Part shown: positions 16,735 to 27,237 of the stretch, piece by piece | Position numbering within the stretch: position 1 is the stretch's first letter | How the letters are laid out: each line of letters opens with the position of its first letter | Assembly (NCBI RefSeq): GCF_015694725.1 | Contig: NZ_JADQDQ010000001.1 | Location: forward strand, 248,001-312,000 | DNA: 64,000 nt | Reading direction: 5' to 3' | Source: Hymenobacter jeongseonensis | Lineage (GTDB): Bacteria; Bacteroidota; Bacteroidia; Cytophagales; Hymenobacteraceae | Program-made: the position numbers and the translations under genes | The notes under the pieces: generated by a model | What the model was told of the DNA's origin: nothing | Database searches by the model: none | Seen by the model: only the letters and a program-made list of their open reading frames with translations

Positions 16735-16956
16735 ATGTACTGGACACTCGAACTTGCTTCCTACCTGGAAGATGCTCCCTGGCCCGCCACCAAAGACGAA
16801 CTGATTGACTTTTCTATCCGCTCGGGTGCGCCCATGGAAGTGGTTGAGAACTTGCAAGCCTTGGAAGACGACGGCCAGCCCTACGAAAACATCGAAGAAG
16901 TATGGCCCGATTACCCGACCAAGGAGGACTTCATGTTCAACGAGGACGAGTACTAA
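16735..16956 (+). CDS. DUF2795 domain protein
   Basis: A 73-residue acidic protein matching the DUF2795 family: the core YLEDAPWPATKDELIDFSIR (10-29) and EVVENLQALEDDGQPYENIEEVW fit the family pattern of a short helical fold with a PATKxELI motif. The family's function is unknown. The ATG at 16735 was chosen because the upstream in-frame extension overlaps the promoter. The tail EDFMFNEDEY is strongly acidic. A hairpin repeat begins nine bases after its stop and overlaps the start of the next gene. Confidence 0.85.
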   Translation: MYWTLELASYLEDAPWPATKDELIDFSIRSGAPMEVVENLQALEDDGQPYENIEEVWPDYPTKEDFMFNEDEY

Positions 16957-16965
16957 GTTTTTAAT

Positions 16966-17043
16966 TATGAGCTGTGAATCATGAATGATGAGTTGAACCA
17001 GGAGCCAGCCTCTGAACTCATCACTCATAATTCACAACTCATA
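16966..17043 (+). repeat. heptamer-built inverted repeat overlapping the ABC ATPase start
   Basis: Arms 16966-16994 and 17015-17043 (29 nt each, 26 paired) enclose a 20-nt loop. The left arm is a run of degenerate 7-mers of the form nnnTGAR: TTATGAG, CTGTGAA, TCATGAA, TGATGAG. All three mismatches are A-C on the plus strand, that is G-U pairs in an antisense RNA. The ATG of the next gene (16981) is inside the left arm. Same architecture, other units, at 25388-25500 and 27167-27227. Confidence 0.75.
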
Positions 17044-17775
17044 GCTGCTGCCACACTCAGCGTGGAAAATCTGGTTGCGGGCTACCCCGGAAGGGTGCTG
17101 GTCCGCAACCTTTTTTTGTGCCTGCCCGAACCGGCTTTCGTGGCCGTGGTGGGGCACAACGGCAGTGGCAAAACCACGTTGTTTCGGGTGCTCACGGGCC
17201 AGCTGCCCTACCAGGGCAGTGCCCGCCTGCTGGGCGAGGAAGTGCGCGGGCTGCGGCGCGCGGCCACGGCCGGCTTGCTGGGCTACTTACCGCAGCGCGG
17301 CAGCATTGGGTTTTCCATTTCGGTGCGCGAGCTGGTGGTGATGGGCCGCTACCGGCACCACGGCTTGCTCAGCGCGTATGCCCCCGCCGATTACGCCCTG
17401 GCCGATGCCGCCTTGGTGCGCGTGGGCGTGCCTCATCTGGCCTTACGGGACTTTACCCAACTCTCCGGCGGCGAGCAGCAATTGGTGTGGCTGGCCCAGC
17501 TCAGCCTTCAGGACGCCCGGATTTACTTGCTCGACGAGCCCACCCAGCAGCTTGATGTGTACTACCGCCGTCAGGTGTTTGGCCTGGTGCACAATTGGGT
17601 GACGGAGCAGGGCAAAACGGTGCTCTGCAGCACCCACGATTTGGATAATTTGCCGGGCTTGAGCGGCTACTTGCTCAACCTTTCGGAGCCGCAGCCGCAA
17701 TTGCGGGTGCTTTCGCCGGCTACGGTGCAGGCCGCCCGCGAGTCGTTGGAGCAAGCCCCGGCCCGCATTGCCTGA
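16981..17775 (+). CDS. orphan ABC transporter ATP-binding protein (iron-siderophore/B12 type)
   Basis: A 264-residue ATPase close to the FecE/BtuD/HmuV group, which energises FecCD-type permeases for iron complexes, heme or cobalamin. Walker A GHNGSGKTT (58-66), signature LSGGEQQLVWLA (161-172) and Walker B IYLLDEPTQQLD (181-192) are intact. No permease or binding protein lies nearby, so its partner is elsewhere. Family similarity begins only at about residue 26 (LSVENLVAGY); residues 1-22 are encoded by the heptamer inverted repeat, so the true start may be the ATG at 16981 or a GTG at 17062. It ends four bases from the convergent crtY. Confidence 0.88.
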   Translation: MNDELNQEPASELITHNSQLIAAATLSVENLVAGYPGRVLVRNLFLCLPEPAFVAVVGHNGSGKTTLFRVLTGQLPYQGSARLLGEEVRGLRRAATAGLLGYLPQRGSIGFSISVRELVVMGRYRHHGLLSAYAPADYALADAALVRVGVPHLALRDFTQLSGGEQQLVWLAQLSLQDARIYLLDEPTQQLDVYYRRQVFGLVHNWVTEQGKTVLCSTHDLDNLPGLSGYLLNLSEPQPQLRVLSPATVQAARESLEQAPARIA

Positions 17776-25387: not shown

Positions 25388-25500
25388 CAATGGGTGAATG
25401 GGTGAATGAAGGAATGGGCGGATGAGCGAATGAACAGCAGGTGAACAGTCATTCACCCGGTTCCCTTTTCTCATTCACCCGTTCCTTCATTCACCCATTG
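25388..25500 (-). repeat. octamer-built inverted repeat upstream of isocitrate dehydrogenase gene
   Basis: On the plus strand the left half reads as degenerate 8-mers (TGGGTGAA, TGGGTGAA, TGAAGGAA, TGGGCGGA, TGAGCGAA) and the right half (about 25470-25500) is their reverse complement with one 8-mer missing and several transitions. A further copy in the middle (GGTGAA / TTCACC) adds an inner stem. It fills nearly the whole spacer between the YtxH stop and the dehydrogenase start. Confidence 0.75.
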
Positions 25501-27152: not shown

Positions 27153-27166
27153 GGGTTCTTTAAAGA

Positions 27167-27227
27167 AGCTAGGAATTAGGAGCTAGGAGTAAGGTAGCAT
27201 ATTGATTCTAGCTCCTAACTCCTAGCT
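27167..27227 (-). repeat. heptamer-built inverted repeat upstream of nusB
   Basis: Arms 27167-27186 and 27208-27227 (20 nt, one mismatch) with a 21-nt loop. The left half continues as 7-mers AGCTAGG, AATTAGG, AGCTAGG, AGTAAGG. The single mismatch is a G-U pair in the minus-strand transcript. It occupies most of the 85-base gap between leucine dehydrogenase and nusB. Confidence 0.8.
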
Positions 27228-27237
27228 CCTCAAATGA

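Follow-up and report, generated by a model that had tools for sequence, protein, structure and literature searches.

A short-period inverted-repeat hairpin between a DUF2795 gene and an ABC ATPase gene in Hymenobacter, and its counterparts in Hymenobacteraceae

The locus and its hairpins

The region considered here is a stretch of 64,000 nucleotides from Hymenobacter jeongseonensis (the window; positions are counted from its first letter), part of a genome of 5.19 Mb (G000) in which the ABC locus most resembles those of named Hymenobacter species. On its plus strand, a gene for a DUF2795 protein of 73 residues (16735..16956; open reading frame with a match to Pfam PF11387, E 2.8e-19) is the upstream member of a pair. 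Its partner encodes an ABC ATPase, called at 16981..17775 from the open frame, Pfam and alignment; the Pfam ABC_tran domain spans residues 42–189, and the conserved core begins at about 17065. Between the two lies a hairpin built from heptamers of the TTATGAG type, separated by 9 nt from the DUF2795 stop (16956). The inverted-repeat search gives a 5′ arm at 16966..16994, a loop of 20 nt at 16995..17014 and a 3′ arm at 17015..17043, all on the plus strand. The 5′ arm is also marked by its repeat lag; the 3′ arm, as seen in the protein alignment, encodes part of a non-conserved N-terminus.

Both arms are 29 nt long and 90% complementary, with Watson–Crick pairs at 26 of 29 positions, and the best repeat lag of the arms is 7 (score 0.68), which agrees with the two heptamer-built 29-nt arms pairing at 26 positions described in the initial annotation. 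The three mismatched positions are all A–C on the plus strand, with no G–U and no transversion. Folded as RNA, the hairpin has z-scores of −5.3 (plus strand) and −7.9 (minus strand), and none of 200 shuffles folds as well on either strand. The loop length of 20 nt is shared with six relatives (L181, L183, L184, L185, L189 and L197). Two assignments were discarded. A search for an Rfam family gave eight matches, all far below gathering scores and mostly to microRNA families. An intrinsic terminator would have a T-run after the stem, and this is found at one of 70 hairpin loci; the earlier judgement that the heptamer hairpin is no simple terminator thus holds.

The window contains two further hairpins of this kind, both on the minus strand and both between minus-strand genes whose names are our reading of the sequence. 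One, of period 8, occupies 25397..25499 between YtxH-like and isocitrate-dehydrogenase-like (IDH) genes; the other, of period 7, occupies 27164..27230 between leucine-dehydrogenase-like and NusB-like genes. Both fall within about 10 kb. By our reading of the hairpin listing, three of about six short-period hairpins in 864 kb of this genome are in the window.

The same gap in relatives

Two overlapping sets of loci were compared. In the first, a search of 58 relatives (36 from the genus Hymenobacter) gave 30 loci including that of the window; no close ABC orthologue was found in six of the 36 genus relatives, nor in G059. The order DUF2795–gap–ABC occurs at all 30 loci. Of the 30 gaps, 20 yielded an ungapped hairpin, with lag 7 best in 18 of these, and ten yielded none. 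The second, named set consists of the best 80 of 154 loci, from which 74 gaps were parsed (the six others are L216, L217, L245, L253, L254 and L258), making 75 unique gaps with that of the window. Because the sets overlap (L013 and L230 are examples), they are not independent.

Across the 75 Hymenobacteraceae loci, the gap from the DUF2795 stop to the ABC core carries a hairpin in 70, and 59 of these have 7 as their best lag; the hairpin finder returned nothing in five of the 75. Fold z-scores are −2 or lower on at least one strand at 62 loci and above −2 on both strands at 13. In the seven Pontibacter loci the corresponding gap is richer in AT, and most have a heptamer hairpin there (weakly so in L255). 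The hairpin slot is old, being present in both Hymenobacter and Pontibacter. By eye, the outgroup L177, from another family (49% identity), has a gap of about 30 nt with no hairpin and with the terminator stem described below, and in L176 (54% identity) the gap is longer and free of heptamers.

Each arm matches its partner from the same species, not the arms of other species. At the ABC slot, left and right halves from 33 loci (the 30 of the first set plus three more) pair at −31.0 kcal/mol with their own partners and at −19.2 kcal/mol when arms are swapped between species, with 0 of 20,000 permutations reaching this result. For 63 thinned loci of the named set the values are −32.7 and −18.8 (again 0 of 20,000), and the IDH and NusB slots, with 30 loci each, both gave 0 of 20,000. 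Coding controls from the DUF2795 and ABC genes gave 17,173 and 6,938 of 20,000.

The repeat period is also kept at each slot. The IDH slot has a hairpin in 22 of 30 relatives, with period 8 in 14, 9 in four, 7 in none and other lags in four; the NusB slot has one in 25 of 30, with period 7 in 15 and 8 in three, five being REPIN-like by eye and two of other kinds. When other lags are set aside (eight of the 70 ABC loci, four of the 22 IDH rows), period 7 stands against 8 or 9 at 59 to 3 for the ABC slot and 0 to 18 for the IDH slot (Fisher p 4e-15, relatedness ignored).

The letters of the repeats change. The 75 gaps yielded 38 distinct best heptamers. At the 59 better-scored loci (16 of the 75, L239 among them, were left out for weak repeat scores), 31 repeat types require at least 38 type changes on the tree of flanking sequence. 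Since 200 shuffles all needed at least 45, the cassette type is inherited, yet often changed; the TTATGAG type of the window, with six members, needs five changes. Between sister species, the heptamer types of the cassettes can be unrelated. The pair L187 (H. artigasi) and L188 (H. siberiensis), joined as sisters with SH-aLRT 99, has 0.88 identity at third codon positions; the two gaps, at 0.48 identity, are unalignable and the hairpins unrelated. L239 groups with L230, L233 and L240 (SH-aLRT 93), yet its hairpin differs. The pair L021/L018 is not counted as a replacement, because L021 has a shortened gap with a weak fold.

Among the pairs listed with third-position identity of at least 0.81, gap identity is either 0.81–0.99 or 0.48–0.60. 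In several close pairs the gap is better kept than third positions (0.92–0.99 against 0.83–0.85); no such difference is seen in L220/L226 (0.92 against 0.91) or in the L244 pairs (0.81–0.85 against 0.81). Slow compensatory drift as the sole process is insufficient, because sister pairs have unrelated gaps. Drift also happens, as intermediate pairs (gap identity 0.66–0.90 at third-position identity 0.77–0.81) and one compensatory A–T to G–C change between L230 and L233, seen by eye, indicate.

Copies of the cassettes elsewhere were counted as matches at E ≤ 1, with both arms and both strands included. The initial annotation had suggested a search with the arm sequence: by DNA similarity the window cassette is single-copy in its own genome (one match), with 4 to 24 matches in five relatives (4 in L186, 10 in L182, 23 in L185, 24 in L183 and 13 in L189). 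In two of these relatives another type occupies the ABC slot. A loose heptamer pattern (up to three mismatches) matches three more places in the genome of the window (C21:445621, C22:331724 and C22:497273); the one that was read, C22:331724 (L340), is a hairpin in a gap that a crude ORF finder scores as co-directional. The L187 cassette has 44 matches in its own genome, three in its sister L188 and 13 in L193, which has a similar type in the slot; two other copies were read and both are hairpins. For the L239 cassette the counts are 12 in its own genome, four in L240 and two in L230, and for that of L188 they are 19 in its own genome and 53 in its sister L187. Of the four slot cassettes counted against sisters, two (L187 and L239) are commoner in their own genome and two are not. 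Repeat families differ strongly between sister genomes, and the type in the slot is not in every case the commonest one of its genome.

Triplets of CTGACAA occur in 39 of 41 genomes, with up to 173 matches (G027), 0 for the reversed control and three in the genome of the window. CTCATAA occurs in 31 of 41, its reversed control being itself a repeat type and often as high. According to the crude ORF finder, 20 loci (19 from G002, one from the genome of the window) comprise nine co-directional, four convergent and two divergent gaps and five ‘inside’ an ORF; at three of the 20 (L328, L334 and L336) the finder took another hairpin.

The ABC start and the terminator-like hairpin

The cassette overlies the ABC start and first codons. 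The annotated ATG at 16981, with its frame open to 17775, sits within the 5′ arm, and an alignment with 11 relatives (12 proteins in all) shows conservation from about residue 28–29, past the right arm. The initial annotation had placed both the start and the onset of ABC similarity in this way, and had read the repeat as possibly supplying a start. Comparison of orthologues, which it had also proposed, favours that reading: the N-terminal residues are not conserved among the 12 proteins, and the in-frame start position varies by species. Of 70 loci, 26 have their first in-frame ATG (the one furthest upstream) in an arm, 24 have it in the loop and three after the hairpin; 17 have none. These data support the view that each cassette carries its own start for the ABC gene. 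As the cassette covers the start and first codons, the N-terminus is rewritten whenever the cassette changes, and the conserved core is left as it was. In L188, L182 and L204, the 3′ arm appears to enter the first conserved codons of the core, where ENL reads QHL or QNL, and the end of the gap looks as if the repeat had overwritten coding sequence.

Just inside the ABC coding sequence, a hairpin at 17073..17117 on the plus strand resembles an intrinsic terminator, with a stem at 17073–17080/17103–17110, a T-tract at 17111–17117 and a fold z-score of −2.8. In the 75 loci, including those of Pontibacter, standard pairs fill 599 of 600 stem cells (575 Watson–Crick), and at least five of the eight positions after the stem are T in every locus; in the first set of 33 loci, all 264 cells are paired. 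Stem and T-tract being kept in relatives, this hairpin is a candidate terminator. Codons for V/I and N/D covary, which keeps the stem paired (GTT/AAC in 48 loci, ATT/AAT in 19, GTT/AAT and ATC/GAT in three each, GTC/GAC in two). The covariation is modest once relatedness is stripped, since 54 of 10,000 shuffles pair as well as observed when the first set is reduced to its six unique haplotypes. In the swap test, the terminator halves were unremarkable (2,999 of 20,000). A consensus terminator scan, which as far as described allows loops of 3–8 and stems without internal bulges, returned nothing at 17073–17117. By eye, the distant orthologue L176 has an in-frame tandem repeat (GGGACCATCCAGTCC-like) in the loop region of this hairpin.

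Possible function, alternatives and related systems

The explanation regarded as best has three parts, which taken jointly are given about an even chance. The heptamer hairpin would belong to a class of inverted-repeat cassettes that occupy Hymenobacteraceae gene gaps and have a short period, 7 nt here and 8 or 9 nt elsewhere; it would act as a separator or attenuator; and cassettes would be replaced by copying. In the transcript, a long hairpin is predicted to form after the DUF2795 stop and ahead of the ABC core, and this intercistronic separator would hold ABC translation low. With a stable hairpin lying over the ABC start, initiation should be slower, and this, together with a terminator just downstream, would favour DUF2795-only transcripts; through the joint effect of the two hairpins, most transcripts may end after DUF2795, with read-through only by those on which ABC translation starts promptly. 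Published accounts describe Bacteroidetes as generally lacking Shine–Dalgarno sequences, with initiation in Flavobacterium tuned by mRNA structure (PMC3155529, PMC6847099), and in the E. coli gal operon intergenic termination, which there is by Rho, is linked to failure to initiate the following gene (PMC9239205).

The copying step, by gene conversion or transposition, could draw on hairpin families elsewhere in the genome or in other strains. Its support is mixed, because the copy counts disagree (19 against 53 for L188; 1 against 4 to 24 for the window). Also counting against the best explanation are the pair types at the ABC slot, the non-conserved position of the start relative to the stem, the gaps that lack a hairpin or fold weakly on both strands, the relatives in which no close ABC orthologue was found, and the unremarkable swap test of the terminator halves. 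A more general form is tentative and rather unlikely: that Hymenobacteraceae gene gaps act as permanent sites for exchangeable hairpin cassettes, in which some copying process replaces the two arms together with those of another hairpin family of matching repeat period, with the result that gene starts are rewritten repeatedly and structure is kept.

With nine rows left out as REPIN-like or without a periodic hairpin, the sense-strand counts of imperfect pairs (G–U, A–C and transversions) are 39, 52 and 69 at the ABC slot, 28, 7 and 11 at the IDH slot and 19, 13 and 15 at the NusB slot. The ABC-slot pair types give no sign of RNA-level selection; those of the IDH slot fit selection on sense RNA. 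The excess of A–C at the ABC gap would fit a DNA-strand effect (99 against 59 on the plus strand of the window, p 0.002, with relatedness ignored and relatives assumed to have the same gene orientations); GC skew, which is close to zero around the window, does not settle the matter. The initial annotation was right that the three window mismatches, A–C on the sense strand, become G–U on the minus strand, which also folds better here. Its conclusion of selection on, or origin from, an antisense RNA hairpin is very improbable, given that the fold is stronger on the sense strand at 38 of 75 loci and on the antisense strand at 37 (medians −3.6 and −3.4), and that the three gaps pooled have 86 G–U against 72 A–C on the sense strand (p 0.30).

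The same even balance of strands, with no G–U enrichment at the ABC slot or over the three slots pooled, would be expected of selfish or neutral repetitive DNA, REPIN- or STRR-like, whose cassettes spread between gaps while DNA-level processes such as template switching keep the arms complementary and genes tolerate them. Such repeats form genome-wide families, and REPIN-like hairpins (by eye) occupy the NusB slot of five of 30 relatives. This explanation is a substantial possibility, somewhat short of an even chance; it sits poorly with a slot filled across a family and a period kept per slot, with gaps better kept than third codon positions in several close pairs (not L220/L226 or the L244 pairs), and with the preponderance of G–U over A–C at the IDH (28 against 7, transversions 11) and NusB (19 against 13) slots, as selection on sense RNA would give. 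A narrower proposal makes the stem a gate of this ABC gene, hiding the ATG at 16981 and opening on DUF2795 translation or a ligand. The position of that ATG and the tuning of initiation by mRNA structure described for Flavobacterium (PMC6847099) speak for it. It is nonetheless improbable: at 41 of 70 loci the first in-frame ATG falls in the loop or is lacking, and an ATG in the arm at just 26 makes gating weak as a conserved role. Nor is the hairpin peculiar to this ATPase, the same kind being found in unrelated gaps and across Hymenobacteraceae.

The closest known system is that of the cyanobacterial STRR (short tandemly repeated repetitive) sequences, heptamer hairpins found for example in the hupS–hupL and hoxW gaps and described there as of unknown function (PMC2670836). 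Tandem 7-bp repeats and a hairpin in a gene gap are common to both, lag 7 being best in 59 of the 70 hairpin gaps; the Nostoc repeats csR1.1 and csR1.2, as published (PMC2408588), share the heptamers TTGTCAG and TTGTTAG with NusB gaps of several relatives, by eye. Unlike STRR, the present repeats belong to a different phylum; their slot has a hairpin of constant period throughout a family, with a complete turnover of its letters, and a start codon comes with the cassette. Direct repeats of TAACTGA, reported from Beggiatoaceae, Cyanobacteria and five Bacteroidetes (Hymenobacter not among the five), are likewise heptamers that lie in gaps, frequently right in front of a start codon, and have a scattered phylogeny; as described, they are direct repeats of one fixed heptamer, whereas the Hymenobacteraceae cassettes are two-armed hairpins (PMC4679880). 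Heptamer hairpins in cyanobacterial gene gaps (PMC2670836, PMC2408588) and heptamer repeats in a few Bacteroidetes (PMC4679880) are already on record in these sources. A literature search by title and start of abstract, with subscription papers mostly outside its scope, showed among the matches listed no paper on slot-conserved heptamer hairpins with changing letters, nor on such repeats in Hymenobacter.

The ABC slot offers a test case for the spread and role of such repeats: the slot recurs in dozens of species, sisters can hold unrelated cassettes and controls are easy, which makes it possible to test how cassettes are replaced and how they affect the genes beside them. It also carries a warning that repeats can be the source of gene starts and N-termini next to gaps of this kind. 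Members of a REP family share a single conserved sequence; at the ABC slot, by contrast, the 59 scored loci show 31 repeat types that have period and pairing in common, and membership of a REPIN/REP family defined by one conserved palindrome was rejected on this count. REPIN/REP palindromes, as published, are also short hairpins present in many copies in gaps (PMC3116915, PMC3733652). REPIN-like hairpin families (GTCATGCTGAGCGCAGC… and GTAGCGCGGACTTTTAGTCCGCG…) recur in those parts of this genome that were sampled (L035–L051), for example at L037:3737–3838 and L036:3148–3226.
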